Source of the DNA: a virus
Strand: one strand, 5' to 3'
Virus record (IMG/VR): IMGVR_UViG_3300017527_000794
Coordinates: 1 to 36,288 of that record
DNA length: 36,288 nt
Position 1 is the first letter of the stretch, and every line of letters begins with the position of its first letter. Position numbers and translations under genes: made by a program. Below, one piece after another: positions 1 to 36,288 of this stretch. The notes beneath the pieces were generated by a model. That model worked only from the letters and a program-made list of their open reading frames with translations. It was not told the origin of the DNA and made no database searches.

Positions 1-38
1 AATTAACAGAAGATGAAATAAAAAGTGTCCATAAATAA
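1..38 (+). CDS. C-terminal end of an upstream gene (partial)
   Basis: Reading from base 3 there is an open frame, LTEDEIKSVHK, ending at TAA 36-38. It runs off the left edge, so the gene continues outside the window. It is followed 10 nt later by the first copy of the 13-bp start-associated repeat and the next gene on the same strand, so it probably belongs to the same early transcription unit. Too short to identify; no function can be given. Confidence 0.4.
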   Translation, partial: LTEDEIKSVHK

Positions 39-47
39 CCACACAAA

Positions 48-60
48 AAACATCATTATT
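48..60 (+). repeat. Start-associated repeat copy (AAACATCATTATT)
   Basis: Variant of the 13-bp motif AAATCTCATTAYY. It directly abuts the ribosome binding site GAAAGGAAAAG of the gene starting at 75. The same order, motif then RBS then ATG, recurs at 1307, 1641, 2026, 2355 and 2547. Confidence 0.75.
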
Positions 61-74
61 TGAAAGGAAAAGTT

Positions 75-755
75 ATGAGTAAATACCAGAGTAATTATAT
101 AGCCAAAGTACCAAACGACAGTGCAGGAAATCTCATTATTTCAGAATTAAAAAAGTATTTAAATAAAAAGTCTTATTGTCTTAAGATTCGAGGATCAAAA
201 CCAAAAGTAAAAGGATCGCATAATAACAGCCCATCAATACCCATTAAGGATTCTCAGGAACTGCGAATTTATGTAATGACTAAGGATGCTGATGTTGTCG
301 GAATTGATCAGGTAAAATGTAATAAAGATTTAAGTAATAGAAATTATGAACTTGATAAAGAGATCAGAGAGTTAAAAAATACCATTACTCAGTTAGAAGA
401 ATCACAAATTACAAGTGATCATCATAAGGATATACAGTTTAATGATGCCGTATCATGTGGGCGATCTCTTAAAAATCAGGTTAATGATTTAATTGAAATG
501 AATAGTATTCAGTTACAAACCATCGAAGAAATTGGAAGAGAAAATAACAGACTGAAGGCTGAATTAAAAGAGTTTAAATCAAATGCAATTCTGGACGATG
601 TACGCAGAGGCTTACAGTCAATGTTTAAAGACATAAACTGTAAACCAGATAGTTTTTTCATAATTGCTGATTTTTGTGTGGAATATATTGTTGATAATAA
701 ATTAAAAGTATCTGAATTGAATAGAGCATTAACCGCTTATTTAGAAAAAAGATAA
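75..755 (+). CDS. Hypothetical coiled-coil protein, early region
   Basis: 226 aa when started at ATG 75, chosen because GAAAGGAAAAG (62-72) is at normal spacing; a TTG 15 nt upstream lies before that RBS. Family not recognised. Residues about 84-110 (NRNYELDKEIRELKNTITQL) and 130-168 (LKNQVNDLIEMNS..IGRENNRLKAEL) have heptad-like spacing of L/I/V and many charged residues, so two coiled-coil segments are likely. The N-terminal 75 residues are basic. No signal peptide or membrane segment. A further copy of the 13-bp motif lies inside the gene at 128-140, read as NLI. It is the first complete gene of the + strand early cluster. A DNA-binding or scaffolding role would only be a guess. Confidence 0.8.
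   Translation: MSKYQSNYIAKVPNDSAGNLIISELKKYLNKKSYCLKIRGSKPKVKGSHNNSPSIPIKDSQELRIYVMTKDADVVGIDQVKCNKDLSNRNYELDKEIRELKNTITQLEESQITSDHHKDIQFNDAVSCGRSLKNQVNDLIEMNSIQLQTIEEIGRENNRLKAELKEFKSNAILDDVRRGLQSMFKDINCKPDSFFIIADFCVEYIVDNKLKVSELNRALTAYLEKR
128..140 (+). repeat. Intragenic copy of the 13-bp motif (AAATCTCATTATT)
   Basis: Exact match to the intergenic consensus, but inside the coding sequence of the 226-aa protein, read in frame as N-L-I-I. It shows that the motif is not restricted to start sites, which argues for a DNA or RNA role independent of the RBS, or for spread by recombination. Confidence 0.6.
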
Positions 756-773
756 GTATAGTTTAAATCACCA

Positions 774-808
774 TTATACATCTGATGCTCTGAACATCAG
801 GTGTATAA
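774..808 (+). promoter_or_regulatory. Hairpin 1 upstream of a start-associated repeat
   Basis: Arms TTATACATCTGATG (774-787) and CATCAGGTGTATAA (795-808) pair over 14 bp with one G-U, loop CTCTGAA. There is no T-run behind it, so it is not a standard terminator. It is followed within 2 nt by a 25-nt sequence (811-835) nearly identical to 1296-1320, which is itself preceded by hairpin 2. Probably an RNA processing or control element of the 5' leader of the gene at 873. Confidence 0.65.
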
Positions 809-810
809 GT

Positions 811-835
811 GGTAGTTTAATAAATCTCATTATTT
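811..835 (+). repeat. 25-nt leader repeat, copy 1 (contains 13-bp motif at 822-834)
   Basis: Begins GGTAGTTTAATAAAT and ends TCATTATTT. 24 of 25 bases equal those at 1296-1320; the only difference is C826 against A1311. It contains the start-associated motif AAATCTCATTATT. Confidence 0.75.
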
Positions 836-872
836 AAAAAGTACCATTAACTTAAAACCAGAGGAGAAAATT

Positions 873-1256
873 ATGAAGATTAAAAGAATTGATTCAAGAG
901 AGTGCGACATTATCAGAAATAAAGTAGAATCTAAATTGGCAGAGGTTGAGCAGGAATTAGGTATAAATCTCAAGATGAATACCATCAGATATAATGAAGA
1001 TGGAGAATCAGCAGGTTTTAAGGTTGAGGTATCGGTTGCCGATGCTACTCCACAAACTGTTAAAGATTATAATCGTTATGCGAGTATCTGCGAATTACCA
1101 TTACTCGGTACAAAGGTTAAGCTTAACGGCAGAATTTTCAAAACAGCAGGTTATAAATCAAGATCAAGAAAAAAACCAGTTATCATAACTGAGGTTTCAA
1201 CTGGAAAACAATTTACAACAAGTGAAGATTCGGTCAAACGTAATATTATTAATTAA
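873..1256 (+). CDS. Conserved-looking phage protein of unknown function
   Basis: 127 aa from ATG 873, preceded by CCAGAGGAGAAAATT, a strong RBS of the second type used in this cluster. Not assigned to a named family. The N-terminal half (about 1-60) is predicted helix then beta (ESKLAEVEQELGINL..GFKVEVSVAD); the C-terminal part has a basic patch (KTAGYKSRSRKKPVIITEV, about 90-108) with the look of a small beta-barrel that could bind nucleic acid, which is inference. It lies between the two hairpin leaders, as a single gene per leader. No membrane or signal features. Confidence 0.75.
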   Translation: MKIKRIDSRECDIIRNKVESKLAEVEQELGINLKMNTIRYNEDGESAGFKVEVSVADATPQTVKDYNRYASICELPLLGTKVKLNGRIFKTAGYKSRSRKKPVIITEVSTGKQFTTSEDSVKRNIIN

Positions 1257-1266
1257 GGTATCAATT

Positions 1267-1292
1267 CAGTACTGCTCTCAGGAGTAGTACTG
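1267..1292 (+). promoter_or_regulatory. Hairpin 2 upstream of a start-associated repeat
   Basis: Arms CAGTACTGCTC (1267-1277) and GAGTAGTACTG (1282-1292), loop TCAG, 11 bp with one G-U. Its sequence differs from hairpin 1, but position and size are alike and both contain TGCTCT at the apex. No T-run follows, so a terminator is unlikely. Confidence 0.65.
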
Positions 1293-1295
1293 CAT

Positions 1296-1320
1296 GGTAG
1301 TTTAATAAATATCATTATTT
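1296..1320 (+). repeat. 25-nt leader repeat, copy 2 (contains motif at 1307-1319)
   Basis: Second copy of the 811-835 sequence. It directly precedes the RBS GAAAGGAAAAA and ATG 1335. Confidence 0.75.
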
Positions 1321-1334
1321 GAAAGGAAAAATTT

Positions 1335-1640
1335 ATGAGACAATTAGAAGAGGCGATAAGAGGATTATTATCAGATAAGATTGAGAGTGAAATCTACACC
1401 GATGAGGATGGAATATGGCTAGACGAAACAGAGATTATAGTTAAACTTGAAGAGTCAGAATCTCATTACCCAGAAAAAATTCAGGGAACGACAGATAAAA
1501 CATTTTGCTTTCCGGATGAGGACTGTCGGCACTGCAATAAAAAAAAGTATAATTGTGATCCTACAGGCTCTGTCGAATGGATCGCAGAGCTAAGAGAATA
1601 TGAAGAATTGAACCTTACTTATTATGTGGCACAAATCTAA
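1335..1640 (+). CDS. Hypothetical acidic protein with a small Cys cluster
   Basis: 101 aa, ATG 1335 behind GAAAGGAAAAATTT. Family not recognised. The N-terminal half is acidic (EEAIRGLLSDKIESEIYTDEDG). Residues about 55-75 hold C-x6-C-x2-C-x6-C (CFPDEDCRHCNKKKYNC), a possible metal site. It sits between two start-associated repeats. Some small phage proteins of this kind are host modulators, but nothing here proves that. Confidence 0.7.
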   Translation: MRQLEEAIRGLLSDKIESEIYTDEDGIWLDETEIIVKLEESESHYPEKIQGTTDKTFCFPDEDCRHCNKKKYNCDPTGSVEWIAELREYEELNLTYYVAQI

Positions 1641-1653
1641 AAACATCATTATC
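1641..1653 (+). repeat. Start-associated repeat copy (AAACATCATTATC)
   Basis: Begins right at the stop codon of the preceding gene and runs into the RBS CAGAGGAGAGAATT of the gene at 1668. Confidence 0.75.
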
Positions 1654-1667
1654 CAGAGGAGAGAATT

Positions 1668-1880
1668 ATGATTGACTTAAGAAAAATAGTAAAAGGTAAA
1701 AGTACCGCACATGGAGCAATAGAAGTAGAAGTATCGGATAAATTTTTAGGTGGATTTGTTTATGTTTACATGGATTATGTTGAGCAGTATCCACATAAAC
1801 AGACATTCTACAAAGAGAGAGCAATCCAGAAGTTAAGTGCATTAAATCTCATTAACTCAGAATTAATAGCAAAAAGTTAA
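1668..1880 (+). CDS. Small hypothetical protein
   Basis: 70 aa, ATG 1668 with a strong RBS (CAGAGGAGAGAATT). No recognised family. It looks like a compact alpha/beta protein: a beta-rich stretch (GAIEVEVSDKFLGGFVYVYMDYV) followed by a helix (ERAIQKLSALNLINSELI). A copy of the 13-bp motif is embedded at 1844-1856, encoding NLIN, and another follows the stop codon. No Cys cluster, membrane segment or signal peptide. Confidence 0.7.
   Translation: MIDLRKIVKGKSTAHGAIEVEVSDKFLGGFVYVYMDYVEQYPHKQTFYKERAIQKLSALNLINSELIAKS
1844..1856 (+). repeat. Intragenic copy of the 13-bp motif (AAATCTCATTAAC)
   Basis: Near the 3' end of the 70-aa gene; matches AAATCTCATTA exactly in its first 11 bases. Confidence 0.55.
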
Positions 1881-1893
1881 ATATCTCATTATC
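1881..1893 (+). repeat. Start-associated repeat copy (ATATCTCATTATC)
   Basis: Directly after the TAA of the 70-aa gene and 47 nt before the micro-gene at 1941, the longest distance from a start among the intergenic copies. Confidence 0.65.
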
Positions 1894-1940
1894 TTTTGAC
1901 CGTATTTGACAAAACATTAACATATAATCAGAGGTATGTT

Positions 1941-2024
1941 ATGGAATCAAGAATTAGAATATATACAGCTTTATCGTACGGAATTGTGCTTATAGGATGT
2001 CTCATTGTCTCTATGGCAGTTTAA
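1941..2024 (+). CDS. 27-aa single-span membrane micro-protein
   Basis: ATG 1941 to TAA 2022-2024, behind a CAGAGGTATGTT RBS like the other type-B starts. After a short basic N-terminus (MESRIRIY) the rest is hydrophobic (ALSYGIVLIGCLIVSMAV), enough for one membrane helix. Flanked on both sides by start-associated repeats, as its neighbours are, which supports it as a real gene. Function unknown; small phage membrane peptides often affect the host envelope or superinfection, but this is inference. Confidence 0.6.
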   Translation: MESRIRIYTALSYGIVLIGCLIVSMAV

Positions 2025-2025
2025 A

Positions 2026-2038
2026 AAATCTCATTATT
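2026..2038 (+). repeat. Start-associated repeat copy (AAATCTCATTATT)
   Basis: Perfect consensus copy joined to GAAAGGAAAGTTATGAG, the start region of the next gene. Confidence 0.8.
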
Positions 2039-2051
2039 TGAAAGGAAAGTT

Positions 2052-2249
2052 ATGAGTAAATTAGTAAGGTTTGTGAATAAGAATGATCGTACATTAAAAC
2101 ATCCGTTATATCCTGAAAAGGAAAGTCTAAGGTGTGTCCATTGTGGGCATGTCTTCTTAGATGATGAGTATGTCGGACATGGTTTTCTGGGATCACATTG
2201 CCAAACATGTGAAGAGGAGTATAATATTAGCAATAAATGGGGTTCTTAA
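2052..2249 (+). CDS. Small zinc-ribbon protein
   Basis: 65 aa, ATG 2052 behind GAAAGGAAAGTT. It has CVHCGH (about residues 28-33) and CQTC (about 50-53), a four-cysteine zinc-ribbon layout with 18 residues between the knuckles. The N-terminus is basic (SKLVRFVNKNDRTLK). Such ribbons bind nucleic acid or protein partners; the target is unknown. One of a series of small CxxC proteins in this arm. Confidence 0.75.
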   Translation: MSKLVRFVNKNDRTLKHPLYPEKESLRCVHCGHVFLDDEYVGHGFLGSHCQTCEEEYNISNKWGS

Positions 2250-2262
2250 AAATCTCATTACC
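2250..2262 (+). repeat. Start-associated repeat copy (AAATCTCATTACC)
   Basis: Begins at the last base of the TAA stop of the zinc-ribbon gene. No gene follows at once: the next 118 nt (2263-2380) hold no convincing ORF, only two more motif copies, suggesting a gene was lost here or that the motif marks module borders. Confidence 0.7.
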
Positions 2263-2337
2263 CTGGTCAAGTCCCGGCAAAATAATTTCATTTTGTTCTT
2301 GCATAAACGAACAGGATTGATATGATAAACGAATAAA

Positions 2338-2350
2338 AACCATCATTATC
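2338..2350 (+). repeat. Start-associated repeat copy (AACCATCATTATC)
   Basis: First of two copies 4 nt apart (next at 2355), with CTACAAAATCT between; the same TCTACAAAA junction occurs after the copy at 2547. Confidence 0.65.
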
Positions 2351-2354
2351 TACA

Positions 2355-2367
2355 AAATCTCATTACC
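2355..2367 (+). repeat. Start-associated repeat copy (AAATCTCATTACC)
   Basis: Perfect core, fused to the RBS CAGAGGAGTGAGC of the 53-aa gene at 2381. Confidence 0.8.
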
Positions 2368-2380
2368 CAGAGGAGTGAGC

Positions 2381-2542
2381 ATGTCAAAAAACGATACAAT
2401 TAAAATCAATAAAGATGTAAAGAAAATAAGAAAGATGCGTGAGGATCTGCAAGAAGAATTACGCGAGATCGAGTCTGCCGCTGAACTTAAAAAGCTTGAG
2501 ATCAGAAACATGAATTTCATGGAAAAGGAATTGATTAAATAA
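2381..2542 (+). CDS. Small charged helical protein
   Basis: 53 aa, ATG 2381 to TAA 2540-2542, with a good RBS (CAGAGGAGTGAGC) and flanked by the same repeats as its neighbours. Almost wholly charged helix (KINKDVKKIRKMREDLQEEL then REIESAAELKKLEI), probably a short coiled coil that dimerises. No family recognised. Too short for usual gene finders. Confidence 0.65.
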   Translation: MSKNDTIKINKDVKKIRKMREDLQEELREIESAAELKKLEIRNMNFMEKELIK

Positions 2543-2546
2543 CACA

Positions 2547-2559
2547 AAATCTCATTATC
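2547..2559 (+). repeat. Start-associated repeat copy (AAATCTCATTATC)
   Basis: Perfect core, followed by ACAAAACACCATTAATTAA and then the RBS GGAGAGGATT of the gene at 2590. A related CCATTAACTTAAA stretch follows the copy at 822, so the longer leader is partly shared as well. Confidence 0.75.
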
Positions 2560-2589
2560 TACAAAACACCATTAATTAAGGAGAGGATT

Positions 2590-2772
2590 ATGGCAGAAGA
2601 GAATATAATAATATCTGATGGAAGAGAGTGCTTTCAAACCATAATCACAAAAACAATAATGATTAAATCAAGGTGTGATGATTGTGGTAAAGAAATGGAT
2701 ATACATAAAATCGATGGCAGTTATTACGATGTGTGTGATGATTGCGAAATCAACATTAAGAGAGGATGGTAA
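2590..2772 (+). CDS. Small zinc-ribbon protein
   Basis: 60 aa, ATG 2590 with RBS AAGGAGAGGATT (the same RBS string precedes the gene at 35665 on the other strand). CDDCGKEM (about 35-42) and CDDCEI (about 50-55) form a compact four-Cys ribbon. Its end overlaps the candidate upstream ATG of the annealase gene, so the two are probably co-translated. Function unknown; its place next to the recombination genes suggests, but does not show, a role in DNA metabolism. Confidence 0.75.
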   Translation: MAEENIIISDGRECFQTIITKTIMIKSRCDDCGKEMDIHKIDGSYYDVCDDCEINIKRGW

Positions 2773-2774
2773 AA

Positions 2775-3545
2775 ATGACAGAAGAGAACAAAGTTAAACC
2801 ATTTAGAGAGATACTTGAGGAACTGAGAGAGCCACTTGCAATGGAAGATATTGAACTGCGAGTAGGTGCAAACTCTCAAAACAGTTTCCTGCTGTTGGTA
2901 TATAAGACAGCCAGAACAGACATGAAACGGCTAAACGATGTCTGCCCATTATGGGAGAACGAGCATCCTGTTGATTCAAAAGGGAACGTGACCTGTACCA
3001 TCCGTATCTGGGATTATGAAACAGAACAATGGATATCGAGGCAGGACACCGGAAAAGAATCTAAAGAAGACAAAGAAAAGGGTGCTTATTCAGACTCTTT
3101 TAAACGTGCAGGATTCAGGTGGGGAATTGGAATAGAGACATACCATGCCCCGGTTATCAGAATTCCTTGGGATATGGACGAACAAACTTTCGGCAATAAG
3201 AAAAAATATACCCCTAAAAAATTCTGGCCATCAAATCTTGAACTCACAAAATGGGAAGTTGTTAACGGCATCCCAGAACTTGAGATTAAGTATGCCGGAA
3301 AGGTCATTTTCCCTGTGAGTATGCAAAAAGGTAAAAAATCTCATTCTTCAGAAACCGATCCGGACAGGAAAGTTAATACAGAAGAGATTAAATACCTGCG
3401 TGATGCATTAACGGTAAAAGGTCTTGATGATAATTATATTATAGAACAGTTTGATATTGAGAAGCTTGAAGATCTTCTGGAGAAGTATGGTAAAGATGCT
3501 CTTCAAAAAATAAACGATTTTGAATTTGACGATGTCCCATTTTAA
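2775..3545 (+). CDS. Rad52-family single-strand annealing protein (Sak-like)
   Basis: 256 aa from ATG 2775, with GAGAGGA at 2759-2765; the ATG at 2766 touches that RBS and is less likely. It should anneal complementary single strands during phage recombination and replication. Residues 102-119 (KGAYSDSFKRAGFRWGIG) match the hallmark helix of phage Rad52-like proteins (KGAxSDxxKRAAxxxGIG). Residues 20-45 and 68-92 give the beta strands of that fold; 200-247 form a separate helical C-terminal region. The last residues, FEFDDVPF, copy the acidic DDxPF tip of bacterial SSB, while the phage SSB at 7583 lacks it. Followed by an exonuclease gene, as in recombinase operons. Confidence 0.85.
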   Translation: MTEENKVKPFREILEELREPLAMEDIELRVGANSQNSFLLLVYKTARTDMKRLNDVCPLWENEHPVDSKGNVTCTIRIWDYETEQWISRQDTGKESKEDKEKGAYSDSFKRAGFRWGIGIETYHAPVIRIPWDMDEQTFGNKKKYTPKKFWPSNLELTKWEVVNGIPELEIKYAGKVIFPVSMQKGKKSHSSETDPDRKVNTEEIKYLRDALTVKGLDDNYIIEQFDIEKLEDLLEKYGKDALQKINDFEFDDVPF

Positions 3546-3559
3546 AGAAAGGAAAAGTT

Positions 3560-3991
3560 ATGGGTTATTCAACAGAGTTTAAGGGTATATTAAAGTTTAC
3601 AAATGAATTAACTGCATCGCAACTTGCAGAGGTAAAAAAGTTTTTAGGTGAAGATTGTAGAAATCATCCTGAATGGGCAAAGGCAAGAAATCTTTATTAT
3701 GTTGACCTTGAACTTACAAATGATTTTTCAGGATTATGTTGGAGCGGAGCAGAAAAGACAAGTGACATGGTTGAAATAGTTAACATGATAATTCATAACA
3801 TGAAATATCTTTATCCGGAATTTGGCTTATGTGGCAGTCTTAAAGCTCAAGGAGAAGATTTTGAGGACACATGGGAGCTTGTTTTTGAAAATAATATTGC
3901 TGTTGCTAAAAAATTAATTAGAACTGGGAATATTATAAAATGCCCATATTGTGAACAAAAATTTGAATATGAAGGAGAGAACAATGAGTAA
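3560..3991 (+). CDS. Hypothetical phage protein with C-terminal CxxC
   Basis: 143 aa, ATG 3560 behind AAAGAAAGGAAAAGTT (same start string as the gene at 75, but without the 13-bp motif). Mixed alpha/beta sequence with several Trp (HPEWAKARNLYYVDLEL, GLCWSGAEK, EDTWELVF); C-terminus holds a single CPYC knuckle (about 131-134). No family recognised. Its stop codon overlaps the ATG of the exonuclease (ATGAGTAA), so the two are translationally coupled, pointing to a linked function. Confidence 0.75.
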   Translation: MGYSTEFKGILKFTNELTASQLAEVKKFLGEDCRNHPEWAKARNLYYVDLELTNDFSGLCWSGAEKTSDMVEIVNMIIHNMKYLYPEFGLCGSLKAQGEDFEDTWELVFENNIAVAKKLIRTGNIIKCPYCEQKFEYEGENNE

Positions 3992-4640
3992 AGAAGGATT
4001 AGTACTAGCATTCGATTTTGAAACTATCGCAAACCCATTTCTGGTAGAGTTACTGCCGGAAGTGAAACAAAAAGCCAACCTTAAAGATCCTGAGAAGATA
4101 AAGGCAGATATCGAGGAGAAGAAAATCAAACAACTTGATATGATGGGCTGTAATCCTCACCTCAATATCATCTGCTGTGCATCCTTCAGAGATGTATACT
4201 CAGGTGATATCTGCTCCTTCATGCTTGAGTCAGGCACTTTGGATGAAAAGCCATTACTTGAGGAAATATGGGATTTCATGGCAGGGTATCAGATCTATAC
4301 TTCATTCAACGGTATGCAGTTTGATGTCGAATGTCTGAAATTCCACAGCATGACACATGAGATTGCCAGAGAGAAGATTTTTTTTATCGGTCAGAATAAA
4401 TATCTAGTTGATAATCATGTTGATATCAGGATGGTACTCGGTCAGAAGAATGACTATGCTAAAGGAACTCAGGATATGTTTTCCAGGGTAATCCTTGGTG
4501 AAGAGGCAGTCGGGTCCGGATCAGAAGTTCAGGAATGGTGGGATAACGGTGATCATGACAAGATACAGGAACATTGTGAACATGATGTTGATCATCTTGC
4601 CAGAATTTATAGAAAGATTGAGGGATATTATGGATTTTAA
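3984..4640 (+). CDS. DnaQ-fold 3'-5' exonuclease (PolB-exonuclease-like)
   Basis: 218 aa from ATG 3984 (AAGGAGAG RBS). All three exonuclease motifs are visible: Exo I FDFETIA (residues 10-16, D11 and E13), Exo II SFNGMQFDVECLK (107-119, D114) and Exo III EHCEHDVDHLARIY (196-209, D201). These acidic residues bind the two metal ions that cut the terminal phosphodiester. Closest to the predicted 3'-5' exonucleases related to the proofreading domain of PolB. Placed after the annealase it could supply 3' overhang trimming for recombination, or proofreading; the choice is inference. Overlaps the next gene by 11 nt. Confidence 0.85.
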   Translation: MSKEGLVLAFDFETIANPFLVELLPEVKQKANLKDPEKIKADIEEKKIKQLDMMGCNPHLNIICCASFRDVYSGDICSFMLESGTLDEKPLLEEIWDFMAGYQIYTSFNGMQFDVECLKFHSMTHEIAREKIFFIGQNKYLVDNHVDIRMVLGQKNDYAKGTQDMFSRVILGEEAVGSGSEVQEWWDNGDHDKIQEHCEHDVDHLARIYRKIEGYYGF

Positions 4641-4905
4641 AATTAAAAGCATGGGAGCTTTATGCTCCCTTGAAATAGATTGCCATATAAACGGTATAGA
4701 TGTAGATCAGGATGATTTTGTTAATCAATATGATAATGCTGAAGATGATGCTGAAGAGTATGGATGTGGCGATATGACCTGTGATATTGAAGATCCAACA
4801 GATGAAGTATTAAATAAATATAAGATAACTGCTGAAGAGCATAAAGTCTTAGCAGAGAAGATTTCAGCAGAGTTGTCTTTTGGAAGTTGCGGATGGTGTA
4901 CATAA
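4630..4905 (+). CDS. Hypothetical acidic protein
   Basis: 91 aa, ATG 4630 with GAGGGAT RBS, overlapping the exonuclease stop by 11 nt; the open frame extends further upstream but over the exonuclease motifs, so the short form is chosen. Very acidic middle (DVDQDDFVNQYDNAEDDAEE). Cys at the ends (CSLEIDC, GSCGWC). The stop TAA shares a base with the ATG of the next gene (TAATG). No family recognised. Strong acidity could indicate a DNA mimic or a metal binder, unproven. Confidence 0.65.
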   Translation: MDFKIKSMGALCSLEIDCHINGIDVDQDDFVNQYDNAEDDAEEYGCGDMTCDIEDPTDEVLNKYKITAEEHKVLAEKISAELSFGSCGWCT

Positions 4906-5204
4906 TGGATTCTAAACTTCAAAAGCCATCAAAGAATAAAAACTCTCATTACCTTAAAAGTCAAAGAGGTAGAAGGTGTCAGGTTGACGGATGCGGAGAG
5001 TTAGCAGAGCCACATCACGTTAACGGACTTCTTAATGAGAATGCAACAGGCAGTAAAAATGATTATCTTTCTGTCCGGTTATGTCGTGAGCATCACGATG
5101 AAGCACACGACTTCCCGAAGATGTTCTGGAAAACACATAACATTGACCCTAAGAATATTGTTATAAAAAATCTCATTACCTATATAGAAGGGATGCGAAA
5201 ATGA
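4905..5204 (+). CDS. HNH-like zinc-finger protein (Ref/Rap-type recombination nuclease candidate)
   Basis: 99 aa from ATG 4905. CQVDGC (residues about 26-31), then PHHVNG (42-47) and LCREHHDEAH (65-74) give the Cys pair plus paired His of a beta-beta-alpha-metal finger as found in HNH endonucleases of phage recombination loci (Ref, Rap/NinG type). The precise family is uncertain. It lies between a recombination exonuclease and a NinB/DUF1367-like gene, which favours a recombination role. Two copies of the 13-bp motif are embedded (4941-4953 and 5168-5180), the second near the 3' end leading to the next RBS. Confidence 0.65.
   Translation: MDSKLQKPSKNKNSHYLKSQRGRRCQVDGCGELAEPHHVNGLLNENATGSKNDYLSVRLCREHHDEAHDFPKMFWKTHNIDPKNIVIKNLITYIEGMRK
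4941..4953 (+). repeat. Intragenic copy of the 13-bp motif (AACTCTCATTACC)
   Basis: Near the 5' end of the HNH-like gene. The last unbroken cores of the family are this one and 5168-5180. Confidence 0.5.
5168..5180 (+). repeat. Start-associated repeat copy inside an upstream gene (AAATCTCATTACC)
   Basis: Perfect consensus, 20 nt before the ATG at 5201 and followed by AGAAGGGATGCGAAA. It is translated as NLIT at the end of the HNH-like protein, showing that the motif precedes starts even where no intergenic space is left. Confidence 0.65.
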
Positions 5205-15603: not shown

Positions 15604-16377
15604 TTAATATCCAACTGCTATCCAATGAACACCCCATGTAGTTATGGTTGTTAAAGATACAGTGTTTATTTGACCTTGTGTTGTGCTGTTTGGAATAAAT
15701 GAAAAATTCTGCCCACCAGTAGACCCTGATGTTATAGCAGATACCGACCCTACCAATATAAAAATGTCATTGGGAAATGTAATTGGATAATTAAAAGTAG
15801 TAGCTCCTGTTCCGGACCCTGACTCCCTCCCCCACTGAACAATAATTCCACTGTTTAATTTTTGATATCCATCCCGTGATAAGTCTACAATGTTCTCATC
15901 TGTTAATACAAAGTTTGTCCCATCATATCTTAACTTAACAAATTCTCCTGCCAATATTGAGTTTACAATAAGATTTGTCCCTGCCGTATCTTTTATTGTA
16001 TTTGCACCTATTGCATTAATGTTGACAGTAGCATTTGCAAGAGATCCGTTTCCGGCAACAAAACTGACGGTCATGCCCTCAAAATAAGCATCAGGAGATC
16101 TTATGTTTGAAACAGGGTCCAAGACATAAGCACCACCCGTTCCAGTATCTTTATGATATTCAGCACCTCCCATGCCATAGATAGCCATTGCCTGTGCCAG
16201 TTGATAAAAGGTTTCAACGGCAGGAGAATTATTATAGGTGGCAGGAGTCAGCCCTGCTGATATTACTGCATTTTTTAGTTCTTTTAAAAAGCTTGTTGCT
16301 TCAAGACCATTAAGATGCTCATTGTCCCAAACATCAGAAGCCGAGGCTGCGTTTTGTTTGTCTTCATAATTTCTCAT
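15604..16377 (-). CDS. Tail fibre protein with gp53-like C-terminal tip
   Basis: 257 aa, RBS TAGGAGTTTTAT. N-terminal region about 1-80 (ASASDVWDNEHLNGLEATSF, TYNNSPAVETFYQLAQAMAI) is helical, as in baseplate-attachment segments. Middle about 100-165 is a beta repeat (FVAGNGSLANATVNINAIG). The C-terminal 85 residues (GYQKLNSGIIVQWGRESGSG ... TWGVHWIAVGY) are the classic gp53/receptor-binding tip of phage fibres, ending in WIAxGY. It follows the gp48-like baseplate gene, the usual place. Confidence 0.8.
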   Translation of the reverse strand: MRNYEDKQNAASASDVWDNEHLNGLEATSFLKELKNAVISAGLTPATYNNSPAVETFYQLAQAMAIYGMGGAEYHKDTGTGGAYVLDPVSNIRSPDAYFEGMTVSFVAGNGSLANATVNINAIGANTIKDTAGTNLIVNSILAGEFVKLRYDGTNFVLTDENIVDLSRDGYQKLNSGIIVQWGRESGSGTGATTFNYPITFPNDIFILVGSVSAITSGSTGGQNFSFIPNSTTQGQINTVSLTTITTWGVHWIAVGY

Positions 16378-16386
16378 ATAAAACTC

Positions 16387-16983
16387 CTATGTATAATAAA
16401 AAATAAAATGTACATTTGCAGGGATTATCTTATCTAAAACACACGTAACCTGCTCAACATTAATACCGCCAGTAAAAGGTAGAGGTGTAAATTCATATAC
16501 AAAAGACTCTGTTGTTAACTGAACCTCACCGACTATTAAAAACTTCTTATTGATAGCATCAGAGAATCCGACAGGATATGAAGGATAATCTTCTCCTGCA
16601 TATAGCGTAATGGTAATGTCAGGGAAAAGTCTATCAATATAATCCTGTAAATGCGTAAGCTTTACCTTTGGTATTTTTTGAAATCTATCTATGACACCCT
16701 GTCTACGTTGCTCCAACGTAGTCGCTGTTCGTCCTCATGTATCAGGAATGCCGACCGACACTTCCCACTCATCAATCAATTGCGTTGTGTTATTAATGTT
16801 AAATTCATATGCAAGCTCTTCAACCTTTTGCTGTGTGTTATTATGAGCAAGAGCTAAAGAGTTTATCAGTTTCCTTACATTTGATTCATCGATGTTCTTC
16901 GCATCCCAAACCTTACCTATTGGCAAACAATCGGACATCTGTTGTGCTGTTACTTCTTTTTCAGGTGCTGTAAATATGCTCAT
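16387..16983 (-). CDS. Mu gp48/YmfQ-like (DUF2313) baseplate protein with in-frame TGA at Cys 83
   Basis: 198 residues if the single internal TGA (16737-16735) is read. Start ATG 16983 overlaps the stop of the gp47-like gene. Residues 1-82: SDCLPIGKVWDAKN, then TQLIDEWEVSVGIPDT; after the TGA: GRTATTLEQRRQGVIDRF and a normal C-terminal domain to TAG 16387. DUF2313 proteins read (L/I)PDxC followed by TLxxRR at this place, so the TGA replaces a conserved cysteine. Total length is normal for the family and no other stop or frameshift is present. A perfect 8-bp hairpin (16703-16721) follows 13 nt after the TGA. Baseplate protein needed in Mu-like tails; recoding (Sec/Cys) or a nonsense mutation are the alternatives. 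Confidence 0.8.
16703..16721 (-). promoter_or_regulatory. SECIS-like hairpin downstream of the in-frame TGA
   Basis: On the mRNA strand: CTACGTTG, loop GAG, CAACGTAG, 8 perfect base pairs. It begins 13 nt and its loop lies 21 nt after the TGA. Bacterial SECIS elements are hairpins just after UGA with a loop about 16-37 nt away and a G at the start of the loop, all true here. The hairpin also encodes TTLEQRR, a conserved protein motif, so coincidence is possible. Confidence 0.45.
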
Positions 16984-18536
16984 TATATTGACCAAGTAAT
17001 TATTCCAAGTGATGCAATCTCACCATCTGTTGGTTCTATATCACCCGATGGAGCAGACAAAGCAAAGGACACTAAAAAGGCTCCTGTCTCTAAATCCTGA
17101 GTGTTTTGGATTGTGCCTAAGTAACTTGCTTCAGTAACATCTGTTTCTATCTCAACTGAATCTTTAAAAAATGCTTCAAGTTGATCCTCAACTGCTGATC
17201 GCATTGTCGGAGTATCAGGATTAAGAGCAGTAAAAGTAAAATCCGTTGCTGTAAGAGTGGGTGCTTCAACAAAGAGATTATCTTCAGGAGAGTTGGCAGG
17301 TAATGCACCATTATCAATTATTATTTGTTTTGTGTCATCCAATATGTCTTGTGTAGGAATAAGGTTCAAGTCATTGTCTCTTAAAATAAATACTGAGCAT
17401 TGCCCTGGTTCCGGTAGTAAAGCATTTCCTATTCCAACCCAGACACCAGAATCAGAACCTGCCCCAGAGACTACGGTATATGTAAAATTAAGAGTAGTAG
17501 TAACAGTTATTGTTGCCGTAATATTATACTTTGCATCAGTAGCACCACTTACAGTTACTTCCATACCAGTTTGAAGTCCGTGAGCTTCAGCACAAATCGC
17601 AGTTGCTGTTGTGCTGGAAGAGGAAAGAGTTGTTATGGTATGTTCAGAAACAATATCTAATGTTGGTTTCTTTATAAATACTCTGGTATTACCTGTATAG
17701 GAAAGTGCAGCGAGTTTAATTTGATCAGGTGTAAACACACCCTCAATGATCGATCTTGAGAGTATTATTCTTTCTCTATATGCCTCATCCTCTTCTTCTG
17801 ATGCACCACCTGACAAGCCGTCAAACTGAGCATATGCTGTCCCATATGTTGCATTAGTGAACTGTGCTCCTGATGAGAGATTGGTATCAACACCATCTTC
17901 CTGTGCTGTGACATTAATATCTGCGATGTCTGTCTCATATGTTATAGCTGTTGAGGTTGTAGCAGGACTTGTTCCTGACCCGGCAAACTGATATGTAAAC
18001 TTATTGTTTGCAATTGGTGTAACTGCATAGGTTCCTTCATATTCAGTCTGAGTTACCCCTGCTATGGTAACCTCAATCCCTGTGGCGAGAGCATGATCAG
18101 AACTTAATGTTGCGGTTGCAGTAGTGCCAGAACTTGTGAGGCTTGTAATCGTCTGTGTGACGGTCTGTATTGAAGCAACAGAATCCGGCAGGTAAATGAC
18201 ACCATTACTGCCTAAAAACTCGTCTGTGGTCAATATGGTGTTCCCTACCGTACCCTCAATAGTTATGCCACCGAACGCAGGAGTTTCTGTGAGTCTGGGC
18301 AGATCTTCATATCCACCCCATATCTCAAGCCACTCATCTGTCGCAGTTTGTGGAAACATCTGTTTTTCTAAGTCTCTGACAAGAAAAGATATTGCCTGAG
18401 CGAGAACAGCATTTCCCTTTGCAAATGATAATGCCCATGTTGCAAAGACAGTAGGGTCAACGCTTGGAAGTTGTGTTTTAAATTCTGCTGTGATTAGTCC
18501 TGAAAGTTCTTCTAGAGTTGGATAGGTTAGGCTCAT
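16983..18536 (-). CDS. Baseplate J-like protein (Mu gp47-like) with two inserted beta domains
   Basis: 517 aa from ATG 18536, which overlaps the stop of the gp46-like gene (TAATG); the upstream in-frame start lies inside that gene. SLTYPTLEELSGLITAEFKT at the start, then WLEIWGGYEDLPRL and GGASEEEDEAYRERI-ILSRSI are typical of baseplate J proteins, which form the wedges around the hub. Two copies of an extra domain, about 127-205 (SGTTATATLSSDHALATGIE) and about 300-372 (SSTTATAICAEAHGLQTGME), interrupt the core; such HG-loop beta modules are used as insertions in phage tail proteins. Acidic C-terminus. Confidence 0.85.
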   Translation of the reverse strand: MSLTYPTLEELSGLITAEFKTQLPSVDPTVFATWALSFAKGNAVLAQAISFLVRDLEKQMFPQTATDEWLEIWGGYEDLPRLTETPAFGGITIEGTVGNTILTTDEFLGSNGVIYLPDSVASIQTVTQTITSLTSSGTTATATLSSDHALATGIEVTIAGVTQTEYEGTYAVTPIANNKFTYQFAGSGTSPATTSTAITYETDIADINVTAQEDGVDTNLSSGAQFTNATYGTAYAQFDGLSGGASEEEDEAYRERIILSRSIIEGVFTPDQIKLAALSYTGNTRVFIKKPTLDIVSEHTITTLSSSSTTATAICAEAHGLQTGMEVTVSGATDAKYNITATITVTTTLNFTYTVVSGAGSDSGVWVGIGNALLPEPGQCSVFILRDNDLNLIPTQDILDDTKQIIIDNGALPANSPEDNLFVEAPTLTATDFTFTALNPDTPTMRSAVEDQLEAFFKDSVEIETDVTEASYLGTIQNTQDLETGAFLVSFALSAPSGDIEPTDGEIASLGIITWSI

Positions 18537-18991
18537 TATAATATCCTTGAAAGATCGGTATTTTTCCAAAGAGTAACATATGGCAATACCGTATTATCAA
18601 TTTGTGTTATATTTGTAAAGATTTTTATAGCTCTTTCATCCGTCTGTGTTACTGTTATTTCTATCTGCTGTGCGACACTGTCTTCAGTCATCCATTTTAA
18701 ACTAGCCTGTGCATATGCCCTTGCGAAATTTAAATCATCAATTGTAATTCGTGCCTGTTCTAACAGCCAAAGCATTCCACCAAGTTGTCGGCTAACATCA
18801 ACTGTAAGGATATTTCCAACCCATCCTCGTCTCCTTGATGCTTCCTGAACCTGAACAGATGATGCTCTCGCATCGGTAAAGAAACTTGTGGGAATTGCAG
18901 TTTCAAATCCTTCTGCTGATGAGAAGTCTGAATCCTCCACAACTAAATCATAATATCCTTCACTAGTCTGTTTTATTAATACATCCTGCAT
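18536..18991 (-). CDS. Mu gp46-like baseplate protein (GP46)
   Basis: 151 aa, RBS GGAGAACAAATG region. RRRGWVGNILTVDVSRQLGG-MLWLLEQARI (about 54-83) is the GP46 signature (RRGWW...G...GSxLWLLxR) and precedes helices that contact the wedge. The following gene is gp47-like and the preceding gp45-like, the Mu order. Overlaps the next start by one base. Confidence 0.8.
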   Translation of the reverse strand: MQDVLIKQTSEGYYDLVVEDSDFSSAEGFETAIPTSFFTDARASSVQVQEASRRRGWVGNILTVDVSRQLGGMLWLLEQARITIDDLNFARAYAQASLKWMTEDSVAQQIEITVTQTDERAIKIFTNITQIDNTVLPYVTLWKNTDLSRIL

Positions 18992-32897: not shown

Positions 32898-33671
32898 TTA
32901 AAAAGTATATTTACTTCCACATCTGCATCCTGCCACATTCCCTATTAATGCTCCCATTGACATGTCGCCAGGAAACATAAGGAACTGTCCGTTTACTAAA
33001 AAAGGCTGGTTGATAGGAACGGATGCAACATCTGAGTGGCGATGTCCTCTCCGGACTAAGTGATCCCCAACATCCCACCATTCTTTTTTTGCCAACACTG
33101 CACCAACAGCACCTGCCACCAGAGCATCCCTTGGCTCCATCCCTGCCTCTGCATAAGCCTCAATCAGTTTAGTCGATTCTGAGGCTTTTTGTGTTTCAGA
33201 TATTATGATCGTATTCTCACGACCTTTAAACTTTCTACTCAGGATAGTTGCAGACACGACAGCCAGTTCCCTAGTGGTGAACGAATAGTTTCCTTCGTTA
33301 GCAAACGACTGTCGAGCCTGCGTAACTGCATCGTCCATATTGTTCTGAGTCGTATTTAGCATTTCGTCTGTCACCACTGTTCCTGTTCTTTCTCCCCACA
33401 TTAAAAGTGCTGCGAGGACTGCATCGTTTAAATTTTCTTCATCCTGTTTTGTGTCTGTCTTAACCACACCCATGAACGCATTTTGAACTCTTCCGTAATG
33501 ATTATCCAATATTGTTTCAAGTTGTGATTTATATCTATATGCTCTTATAAAAGTTCCTGTTGAAATTCCAATCCTAAACTCAGCATTTATCTTTTGGAAT
33601 AATCTTTTTACTTCCGGTCTGAATTTCTCCTCAAGTTTAATCTTTAATTTTAACTGTTTCTTAAGGTTCAT
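32898..33671 (-). CDS. Minor head / morphogenesis protein (Mu F-like)
   Basis: 257 aa; ATG overlaps the portal stop by 11 nt, RBS GAGGA. Helical N-terminus (LEEKFRPEVKRLFQKINAEF) and the C-terminal signature KEWWDVGDHLVRRGHRHSDV ... PFLVNGQFLMFPGDMSMGAL ... NVAGCRCGS (about 197-253) of Mu gpF/SPP1 gp7 minor head proteins, with the RxxH and CRC metal-like residues. A few copies sit inside the head and may be injected with the DNA. Immediate portal partner. Confidence 0.85.
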   Translation of the reverse strand: MNLKKQLKLKIKLEEKFRPEVKRLFQKINAEFRIGISTGTFIRAYRYKSQLETILDNHYGRVQNAFMGVVKTDTKQDEENLNDAVLAALLMWGERTGTVVTDEMLNTTQNNMDDAVTQARQSFANEGNYSFTTRELAVVSATILSRKFKGRENTIIISETQKASESTKLIEAYAEAGMEPRDALVAGAVGAVLAKKEWWDVGDHLVRRGHRHSDVASVPINQPFLVNGQFLMFPGDMSMGALIGNVAGCRCGSKYTF

Positions 33672-34953
33672 CCACCGTCCTCGGCTCAGGCTCGTTTAAA
33701 TCTGTTCCAAGCGGAATGTATGCTGCGTTCTGATAAAGGACATCTCCACCTTCAACATCTTTACGGTTAGGCATTGATTCCCTTATCTCGTTAATTGTTT
33801 CAAGCCCTGTTTCTTTACGCTCTTTAAGTTCTTTAAGTTTTCTCGCTTTAAGAGGTTGAAGCGATTCAGGATTATAGGTTATTTTCATTCCGGATTTAAG
33901 ATCTATCCCATATCTTGGAAGTAAAAATCTGGTAAGACCCTGGAACAGTTTATCGGCAAGAGGAAGAGTTGCCATGTCATACAGCATCTCAATTCCTGTT
34001 GCAAGATTGTTAAATGTACTTGCCTTGTTTGAAATTAATGGAAGCGGAATGTGATATCTTGAGTAGATGGATCTCCCGGCAATCTGATCAAGTTCTGCAA
34101 AGTCCATATCTTTTTGCGTGATACCCATCTCCTGTACGGTTTCAACATCGCCACCAGAAAGGACTGCGATCTTACCGGCATTTTCCTCTCCAGCGAAGGT
34201 ATCATTAAGTCTCTCGGATCTTTGCAGATGCTCATCATCAGACATGTGCTCATCTTTAAAAACTACCAACAAAGAGAGTCTTCCACCGTTATCAATAATC
34301 TTCATATTATGGATACGGCCTTTTATCTGTTGGTTCGCTTCAAGCGATGCCGCCTGAAGTGGAGAGTCTGCGGTTCCATCGGTCGGCATGGATGAGAACC
34401 CTGCAATCCGGTAAATTTCTTTTAAAGGTCCGTCATAATATCTTGACACTCTTTGTTTTGATATTTTGACATCGTACTCACCTCTTCCGATTCCGGACCC
34501 GATATTAAACATGTCTACATATCCATCACCACCTGTTGTAGCTGTCACGTTAATCGGTTTAACCGGATGAATTTCGGTAGGTGGCAGGGTCACGGCACCC
34601 ATACCATAGAAGTGAGTTTGATTTGTCAAAAGACTGTGTCTTGCAATCCGTGATGCGAAATCGTTCCATGTCATGTGAGAGTTTGGGTTTTTGAGGAGAT
34701 CAACAATTGGATGTTCATCAACTATTGATCCATCGGCAAGCATTAAGATTGGTTTAATCTGTTCAAATGTGTCGGCAATAATATCTACTGCTGTTGCGAC
34801 TGAGGAATTTTGACCGTAGAATTTAAATGCTTTTTGAGGAGTAATTTTCTCGTTTGTCAGGCAATCAAATAAAAATTCATTTGTCAGGCTGTCTATGTAA
34901 ACACTTCTGGTGGATGGTTGTGAGGCTTTTGTTTCCCAAAATTTCCAGTTCAT
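33661..34953 (-). CDS. Portal protein
   Basis: 430 aa from ATG 34953 (an upstream TTG adds 3 residues). NWKFWETKASQPSTRSVYID then QNSSVATAVDIIADTFEQIK (about 46-65) and LLKNPNSHMTWNDFASRIAR-HSLLTNQTHFYG (about 82-113) are the HK97-like portal (phage_portal) pattern; SRYHIPLPLISNKASTFNNL and LTRFLLPRYGIDLKSGMKIT lie in the stem/wing. Dodecamer at one head vertex. It is the first gene of the late transcription unit; the terminase genes that normally precede it are missing here. No clear RBS. Confidence 0.9.
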   Translation of the reverse strand: MNWKFWETKASQPSTRSVYIDSLTNEFLFDCLTNEKITPQKAFKFYGQNSSVATAVDIIADTFEQIKPILMLADGSIVDEHPIVDLLKNPNSHMTWNDFASRIARHSLLTNQTHFYGMGAVTLPPTEIHPVKPINVTATTGGDGYVDMFNIGSGIGRGEYDVKISKQRVSRYYDGPLKEIYRIAGFSSMPTDGTADSPLQAASLEANQQIKGRIHNMKIIDNGGRLSLLVVFKDEHMSDDEHLQRSERLNDTFAGEENAGKIAVLSGGDVETVQEMGITQKDMDFAELDQIAGRSIYSRYHIPLPLISNKASTFNNLATGIEMLYDMATLPLADKLFQGLTRFLLPRYGIDLKSGMKITYNPESLQPLKARKLKELKERKETGLETINEIRESMPNRKDVEGGDVLYQNAAYIPLGTDLNEPEPRTVDEP

Positions 34954-34962
34954 AAACACCAA

Positions 34963-35025
34963 CTATTAAATTTTTTTATAGTTTGTAAAACTATTTTACA
35001 CCCTATTAAATCATTTAATAGTTTA
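34963..35025. promoter_or_regulatory. Operator array of the late promoter
   Basis: Repeated half-sites in 63 bp: CTATTAAA (34963-34970), perfect palindrome ATAGTTT-GTA-AAACTAT (34978-34994), perfect palindrome CTATTAAA-TCA-TTTAATAG (35003-35021), flanked by GTTTA. The half-site consensus is about AAACTATTAAA. One palindrome covers the -10/spacer region of the candidate promoter, the other lies just downstream, as operators of a dimeric regulator would. Confidence 0.6.
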
Positions 35026-35031
35026 TGTCAA
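35003..35031 (-). promoter_or_regulatory. Candidate late promoter
   Basis: On the - strand TTGACA (35031-35026, perfect -35) is followed after 17 nt by TAATAG (35008-35003), a modest -10; TTTAAT at 15 nt is an alternative. Transcripts would start about 40 nt before the portal ATG. It is the only good sigma70-like site in front of the head genes and lies inside the operator array. Confidence 0.5.
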
Positions 35032-35047
35032 GCTTTTTTAGGAGAAA

Positions 35048-35064
35048 GTGACAAAAAATGTCAC
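35048..35064. promoter_or_regulatory. Inverted repeat upstream of the late promoter
   Basis: GTGACA-AAAAA-TGTCAC, perfect 6-bp arms, centred about 25 bp upstream of the -35 box. Unrelated to the AACTATTAAA half-sites; position fits an activator or second regulator. Confidence 0.45.
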
Positions 35065-35090
35065 CTATTGTATATATGTGTGCATTTTGA

Positions 35091-35122
35091 ATAAAAAAAA
35101 GCCGGAGGCAGCACCCCGACTT
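35091..35122 (-). terminator. Rho-independent terminator for leftward transcripts
   Basis: On the - strand AAGTCGGGG, loop TGCTGC, CTCCGGCTT followed by TTTTTT. The 9-bp stem includes two G-U pairs that exist only in the - strand RNA (they are C-A mismatches on the other strand), so it is directional. It isolates the late promoter from the tRNA/small-gene unit to the right. Confidence 0.75.
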
Positions 35123-35164
35123 GTTTATTGATGCCAACGCATGACACCTTTATCTTTTAATATT

Positions 35165-35190
35165 TCCCAATTGTATTGGGATTCTTTTTT
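35165..35190 (+). terminator. Rho-independent terminator-like hairpin (+ orientation)
   Basis: TCCCAAT-TGT-ATTGGGA, 7 bp perfect, followed by TTCTTTTTT on the + strand. No + strand gene is seen before it in this area; it may guard against rightward antisense transcription or be a coincidental part of the micro-ORF. Confidence 0.5.
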
Positions 35191-35314
35191 CTATAATATT
35201 TATGTTTGCGACTTTTCATCGCCTGTTCATATTCCCTCCCTCTGAATAAGATTTATATGATTTACTAACCAATATAATCAGAATATACATTATTTTGATA
35301 TCGTTTGTCAATAA

Positions 35315-35347
35315 AAAAGCACCATCTCCCATGAGACAGTGCTTTTT
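35315..35347. terminator. Bidirectional rho-independent terminator
   Basis: AAAAAGCAC ... GTGCTTTTT outer stem (9 bp) with inner TCTC-CCAT-GAGA; A-run on one side and T-run on the other make it active in both directions. It ends the tRNA-Thr / 81-aa gene unit coming from the right. Confidence 0.75.
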
Positions 35348-35419
35348 CAGAAAGGAAAGACAGATATGAGCACCTGTATGTATATCAAACCTTTTCAGGG
35401 ATGTCAAGTAAATTAAAGG

Positions 35420-35665
35420 CTATTTTTCACCCCATTCATACATCTCTTTAAAATTAAGTCTTGGTGGAGGATTTAATGGAATAAAAGTACACCCATGCTC
35501 CTTTATATAATTTTCCTCTGTCAAAATAATTCTATCAAAAATTTCTCTTATAGGATTTTCACACCTTGTGGACAAATCTTCTATCTCATCCCTGTATCTC
35601 CATATTTCTCCTAAATCAGAATCACATTTTTCTTCCATTGCATCAATTCTTTGCTTATCATCCAT
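35420..35665 (-). CDS. Small hypothetical protein
   Basis: 81 aa, ATG 35665 with RBS AAGGAGAGGATT, the same string as before the zinc-ribbon gene at 2590, hinting that this end belongs to the same phage. N-terminus is a charged helix (DDKQRIDAMEEKCDSDLGEI), then EEDLSTRCENPIREIFDRII-like helix and a Pro-rich turn (IPLNPPPRL). No family recognised. It follows the tRNA on the same strand and is ended by the terminator at 35315-35347. Confidence 0.65.
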   Translation of the reverse strand: MDDKQRIDAMEEKCDSDLGEIWRYRDEIEDLSTRCENPIREIFDRIILTEENYIKEHGCTFIPLNPPPRLNFKEMYEWGEK

Positions 35666-35686
35666 AATCCTCTCCTTTTTAAGTTA

Positions 35687-35759
35687 AGCCGAATATTGGA
35701 TTTGAACCAATGACCCTCTCATTACAAGTGAGATGCTCTACCAACTGAGCTAATCCGGC
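35687..35759 (-). tRNA. tRNA-Thr (anticodon UGU)
   Basis: 73 nt, complete cloverleaf: acceptor GCCGGAT/ATTCGGC (one G-U), D arm GCTC..GAGC with AGTTGGTA, anticodon arm TCTCA-CTTGTAA-TGAGA (anticodon TGT), TPsiC arm ATTGG-TTCAAAT-CCAAT, discriminator T. No CCA encoded. It would read ACA codons, frequent in these genes. Either a phage-carried tRNA or a host tRNA used as attachment site; no attL/attR duplicate is visible within the window. Confidence 0.9.
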
Positions 35760-35761
35760 AG

Positions 35762-35845
35762 TTAGTTATCCCATTCAAATAATATTGAAACTACTAAACA
35801 AAATGCGGTTACTAATACCCCTGATATGATTAACCATAAAGCCAT
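35762..35845 (-). CDS. 27-aa membrane micro-protein
   Basis: ATG 35845 directly follows the TAA of the 39-aa ORF; RBS GAGAGGGATAATTAA. MALWLIISGVLVTAFCLVVS then ILFEWDN: one membrane helix, outside-acidic end. Stop is 2 nt from the tRNA 5' end. Same size class as the peptide at 1941. Function unknown. Confidence 0.55.
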   Translation of the reverse strand: MALWLIISGVLVTAFCLVVSILFEWDN

Positions 35846-35965
35846 TTAATTATCCCTCTCTAAATTGTAATTATCACCAAAGGCACGAATAACAGTAATA
35901 GTGTGTTCATCCATTACTATGCACATAAAAATATGTTGCTCTTCAAATGATTCAATTATTTCCAT
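35846..35965 (-). CDS. 39-aa hypothetical protein
   Basis: ATG 35965 to TAA, overlapping the upstream gene by 10 nt. MEIIESFEEQHIFMCIVMDE-HTITVIRAFGDNYNLERD: acidic and amphipathic, a small beta-alpha protein by look. RBS is weak. Its 3' end carries the RBS of the next micro-gene, a tight arrangement that supports translation. Confidence 0.45.
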   Translation of the reverse strand: MEIIESFEEQHIFMCIVMDEHTITVIRAFGDNYNLERDN

Positions 35966-36288
35966 GAGTAATTTAAATGATTGTAAGTTGAAATAAGTTT
36001 ATTTTTTATGGTTGGATTGTTTCGTTCAATCGTGTTTAATATACGATTTTTAATCCATTTTTTTAACCACGGAATTGACTCAATTATAATCATTCTATTA
36101 TTTAACCTTAATGTACTTAGTTTAAAATAAAAAATTTCGTATTTACCTGTTTTATTTTTAAGTATTTTAAATTGTAAATAAAATAAGAGATATGGACTAT
36201 GTAACCATGGATCAACGTGCATTTCTTTGTCTTTCAAATCAAGAGCATTACAAGCAGACTTAAAAGCTTTAGTTATTTTTTTATTCAT
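35956..36288 (-). CDS. Hypothetical protein, 5' end at or beyond window edge
   Basis: At least 110 aa; an ATG lies exactly at the right edge (36288), so the true start may be there or outside. No family recognised. Sequence is basic and aromatic-rich (HSPYLLFYLQFKILKNKTGK, IPWLKKWIKNRILNTIERNN), AT-rich even for this window. No clear membrane segment. May be phage early-type or host; unresolved. Confidence 0.5.
   Translation of the reverse strand: MNKKITKAFKSACNALDLKDKEMHVDPWLHSPYLLFYLQFKILKNKTGKYEIFYFKLSTLRLNNRMIIIESIPWLKKWIKNRILNTIERNNPTIKNKLISTYNHLNYSWK

Follow-up and report, generated by a model that had tools for sequence, protein, structure and literature searches.

A candidate selenocysteine codon at an invariant cysteine of the gp48-like baseplate wedge protein in two phages

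In bacterial selenoproteins whose SECIS element lies within the coding sequence, such as E. coli fdhF and the families recovered from the Sargasso Sea (PMC1088965), an in-frame UGA stands where homologues have cysteine, a small-loop hairpin with a G in the loop follows it, and the selenocysteine (Sec) forms are scattered sporadically among Cys homologues. The gene described here, a relative of phage Mu gp48 carried by a 36,288-base contig of an uncultured virus (the window, by which we mean this whole stretch of DNA), shares these traits; however, bacterial selenoproteins are mostly cellular redox enzymes, whereas gp48 is a structural virion protein of a phage. The Sargasso Sea study reserved the term "new selenoproteins" for clusters in which two or more different TGA sequences come together with Cys homologues and SECIS-like structures, and treated single-sequence clusters only as "candidates" because of possible sequencing error (PMC1088965). 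With two TGA sequences, Cys homologues and SECIS-like hairpins, the phage gp48 case falls into the more demanding of these classes.

Basilisk-like Bacillus phages carry a tRNA-Sec gene (PMC6145125), which suggests, as does the gp48 case, an interaction of phages with Sec decoding, but there only the tRNA gene is reported, while here we have a candidate Sec protein and no phage tRNA-Sec. The glutathione peroxidase of poxviruses is a virus-encoded selenoprotein produced on host machinery, and in fowlpox its SECIS element is situated in the coding sequence (PMC8310308). The gp48 case would resemble it in being a viral selenoprotein that uses host machinery and a coding-sequence SECIS, although the former is an enzyme of an animal virus made by the eukaryotic mechanism and the latter a structural protein with a candidate SECIS of bacterial type. 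Engineered T7 offered Sec at amber codons displayed no Sec-specific adaptation (PMC8923235). No phage selenoprotein was found in the literature searched, a body of work whose coverage leaves out most subscription journals.

The closest described protein is Mu gp48/YmfQ (PF10076; PDB 9KI1), which belongs to the same family, likewise follows gp46 and gp47 in the tail operon and possesses both invariant cysteines. Mu gp48 and all but one of the other homologues have a Cys codon, whereas the window gene has UGA and a hairpin. This wedge protein of Mu, BW3, docks the tail fibre (PMC11915804). In Agrobacterium phage Milano, cysteines of BW3 and of other wedge proteins belong to a disulfide network that stabilises the baseplate and whose reduction has to precede contraction (PMC10811340). 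BW3 cysteines are bonded there, as is proposed below for gp48, the likeness being drawn at the level of the protein; Milano has disulfides only and no selenium, in contrast to the candidate Sec of the gp48 case.

The gp48 gene and its neighbourhood

The gene for the gp48/YmfQ-like baseplate wedge protein 3 (PF10076) occupies positions 16387..16983 of the minus strand and has 198 codons, read through one TGA, before a TAG stop. An earlier note on this DNA had described the frame as open save for one TGA at codon 83 (16735..16737), and this is confirmed, that triplet being the single internal stop from 16983 to 16387. The proposed identity of the gene holds as well. The read-through protein matches the PF10076 Phage_Mu_Gp48 profile over residues 15-197 (E 7.9e-16; 58.7 bits vs a curated cut-off of 37.4) and PHROG 203 "baseplate wedge subunit" (E 1.5e-18), both matches spanning the TGA position, and a profile search links it to Mu gp48 as resolved in the baseplate structure 9KI1 (9ki1_a; E 1.8e-23). 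A fold model of the read-through protein, helical in its N-part and globular in its C-part, is only moderately confident (mean pLDDT 82, pTM 0.57); Foldseek with this model places 9ki1_b and 9ki1_a in the top three, with a low full-length TM of about 0.3.

The genes around it (PF07409, PF04865, gp48, Gp53-like_C) follow the usual order gp46-gp47-gp48-tail fibre, all on the minus strand. A gp46-like baseplate wedge gene, recognised by its profile match to PF07409, lies at 18536..18991, and the gp47/baseplate J-like gene at 16983..18569 is directly upstream of gp48. The TAA of the latter overlaps the gp48 ATG (TAATG), so translation of gp47 and gp48 may be coupled. Directly downstream of gp48 is the tail fibre gene (Gp53-like_C) at 15604..16377. 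Elsewhere in the window a portal gene is found at 33661-34962 and no terminase was recognised among the ORFs scanned (33661-36288); the record may be a fragment. Positions 35-5184 contain repeated leader-like sequences around AAATCTCATTA, several of them just upstream of the starts of small early ORFs, and these repeats are possibly a shared operator, promoter or translation leader.

Codon 83 in the family and a second TGA gene

The alignment of homologues bears out the earlier expectation that the TGA stands in the place of a cysteine. Column 83 was read in 81 viral homologues in which the motif could be placed and in three more close relatives of the window phage. It is occupied only by Cys (TGC/TGT) or by TGA, and besides the window gene the only exception to Cys is a TGA in one other phage, IMGVR_UViG_3300028840_005437. 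The five nearest relatives of the window gp48 (L017/L115, L018, L112, L113, L114) all have Cys, encoded by TGT or TGC, one base away from TGA. Cys is also present in the near relatives of the second TGA phage, so each TGA case is a singleton in its clade. The earlier note had proposed to look for TGA or Cys in close relatives: the five nearest have no TGA, while an independent phage has both TGA at this codon and a hairpin.

The second invariant cysteine, residue 181 (a TGT codon at 16441..16443, minus strand), is a possible partner of residue 83. Its column is invariant in a 31-row alignment, although homology there is uncertain for the C-terminal part of L018. In L018 the gp48 relative is located inside a 471-codon open frame (1658-3070) that has no gp48 match beyond about residue 127 and possibly represents a fusion or recombination. 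Another homologue, L061 (2001 onward), appears to have lost roughly 40 residues from within its C-terminal part. A sister phage, IMGVR_UViG_3300031920_000119 (L109-L111), has the whole structural module in common with the window, in the same gene order; its sheath is 63% identical to that of the window and its gp48 has Cys at the site.

The second TGA gene was detected by scanning 2.9 million viral contigs for Trp-Glu-x3-Gly-x-Pro-Asp-x-TGA, which gave ten hits. One of them, L008, in the 52-kb record IMGVR_UViG_3300028840_005437 named above, is a genuine gp48 gene whose frame is interrupted by TGA at this codon and nowhere else; it is flanked by gp46/gp47-like genes (with one small extra ORF) on one side and by a tail-fibre gene on the other. 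The nine others were rejected as chance frames that lie outside any gp48. When the pattern was broadened by dropping Trp, it returned L008 again and one more match, L104, likewise a chance frame with no gp48 around. The strict TGA pattern applied to 84,980 genomes yielded no true case, its six hits being chance frames that also have no gp48 around. A maximum-likelihood tree separates the two TGA genes into distinct, well-supported clades where each has Cys relatives as neighbours, and on this tree Cys must have changed to TGA twice, independently (window; L008/L022). The TGA base calls of both phages are metagenome consensus.

Hairpins, decoding and rival explanations

As the earlier note had stated, a perfect 8-bp hairpin with a GAG loop follows the window TGA after a 13-nt spacer (16703..16721, minus strand); its sequence is CTACGTTG-GAG-CAACGTAG, also given as CUACGUUG-GAG-CAACGUAG, and its loop begins 22 nt after TGA. 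The hairpin of L008 is CGGC-U-CUC-UGGAU-GAG-C-GCCG with an 11-nt spacer, and its loop UGGAU begins 20 nt after TGA, with G in the second place. In the fdhF element of E. coli the spacer is likewise 11 nt, and the loop, small but larger than the GAG triloop of the window, starts with G about 19 nt after UGA. Compared with random synonymous recodings that keep each phage's own codon usage, the stability of the hairpin gives p 0.008 for the window and p 0.032 for the second TGA phage; these values are modest, and none of 34 non-redundant Cys homologues reaches 0.05 in the same test. An equally good hairpin in that position accompanies 10 of 1538 TGA triplets in the window and 80 of 1847 in the second TGA phage. 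Raw folding energy was rejected as a diagnostic across homologues, as Cys homologues rich in GC form structures just as stable as those of the TGA genes, which therefore do not stand out. A comparison with Rfam returned nothing at all at E up to 10; bacterial SECIS elements of the short type are variable and may fall outside its coverage.

TGA serves as the stop of 4 of 27 window genes and of 15 of 46 ORFs of G001. It ends ordinary genes in both phages, so UGA is not reassigned genome-wide, and a code 4/25 reading was rejected, there being one candidate in-frame TGA while TGA is still used as stop. Neither a tRNA-Sec nor an opal suppressor was found in the window, in the L008 record or in the sister phage G002. 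Opal suppression, which the earlier note had also considered, is on this account unsupported in its phage-tRNA version, while the other parts of its interpretation (gene identity, Cys alignment and SECIS-like hairpin) stand. With no phage tRNA-Sec, Sec insertion would have to rely on host SelA/SelB/SelC/SelD. The window does have a tRNA-Thr (anticodon TGT; 35687-35759, minus strand) upstream of the structural module, which is neither a Sec nor a suppressor tRNA. When 24.8 kb of the window was compared with phages by megablast there was no match, and tblastn of the portal, sheath and capsid against phages or plasmids returned distant matches with mixed hosts only, or nothing.

From these data we consider Sec insertion at codon 83 by host SelB to be the best explanation, and a reasonably probable one. 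Its main rival is coincidence: in each phage TGA would have replaced TGT/TGC, be it by recent nonsense mutation or through a mistake in the consensus, and the gene would be either broken or mis-sequenced. It would be logical to suspect this, as the close relatives are one base away with their TGT or TGC, neither TGA recurs within its clade, rare errors are possible among the more than 500 homologue loci in reach, and the window was chosen by a reader seeking oddities. However, two independent changes struck the one invariant Cys. No other internal stops occur in about 100 homologues (the viral gp48 genes checked and 19 prophage matches in 398 genomes), and control scans found no TGA at two comparable codons, those of a conserved Trp and of Cys181. 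Counted on the nearest full-length Cys relative, a single substitution can create TGA at 19 codons and a stop of any kind at 68, and the odds that a random nonsense change falls on this Cys are therefore about 1 in 19 to 68. The hairpin excess is confined to the two TGA genes, and a contractile-tail phage is not expected to survive the loss of its gp48 wedge protein. The part of gp48 after TGA evolves no faster than in Cys relatives and has synonymous differences far in excess of nonsynonymous ones; this constraint excludes an old pseudogene and is still compatible with a very recent mutation. That a second phage independently has TGA at this codon, followed by a hairpin of its own, favours selenocysteine over random nonsense mutation, and we regard coincidence as unlikely, though by a wide distance the most serious of the alternatives.

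Two other readings keep the TGA in use. In the first, a suppressor or near-cognate tRNA (Trp, Cys or Arg) would decode the UGA, no Sec would be involved and the hairpin would do no more than assist readthrough; only one codon is affected, and in other systems a 3' hairpin can promote stop-codon readthrough. Against it, the residue is an invariant Cys, so that Trp or Arg would break a conserved site, both phage records lack a suppressor tRNA, UGA is a normal stop in both phages, and neither TGA is in the context UGA-C, the leaky one in E. coli. This makes such readthrough very improbable in our judgement. Still less credit can be given to a split gene, in which the TGA would end an 82-residue N-terminal protein and a second protein would restart just downstream, the two halves assembling. 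Each phage has a possible restart codon, a TTG (codon 90) in the window and a GTG (codon 98) in L008, and the helical N-part and globular C-part of the fold model agree with two pieces, but no Shine-Dalgarno-like sequence precedes either restart, the TTG of the window sits within the hairpin, and no homologue is split at the codon-83 point.

A putative selenocysteine in the phage baseplate

Our proposal is that baseplate wedge protein 3 (Mu gp48/YmfQ) is made from this gene as a selenoprotein. Ribosomes arriving at the UGA of codon 83 would meet, 13 nt downstream, a hairpin acting as a bacterial SECIS element, which may recruit host SelB with selenocysteinyl-tRNA(Sec), provided that the host decodes Sec and its SelB binds the hairpin. 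Sec would then be placed where all relatives have Cys, and translation would run on to the full 198 residues. By this proposal Sec83 would replace one of the two family-invariant cysteines (83, 181) and probably take part in the same bond or redox pair as the Cys it replaces, as for instance in a Se-S bridge within or between wedge subunits. Such a bridge, formed by Sec at one of the two invariant thiol positions, could withstand reducing conditions.

On a larger scale, some tailed phages may have independently turned an invariant baseplate Cys into selenocysteine, with a selenium bond in the contraction-related baseplate and an assembly that depends on host selenium; this broader suggestion we put forward tentatively, with more doubt than confidence. 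If true, a bond containing selenium would belong to the baseplate machinery by which tail contraction is held or triggered, and virion assembly would depend on the selenium supply of the host. Since most bacterial selenoproteins are redox enzymes, one with a structural role in the virion would widen the known uses of selenocysteine. The case would also be a warning that gene callers split or drop phage genes of this kind. For the gp48 family, it would point to a real role for its two invariant cysteines, and for the phages concerned it would link virion production to the selenium status of the host.
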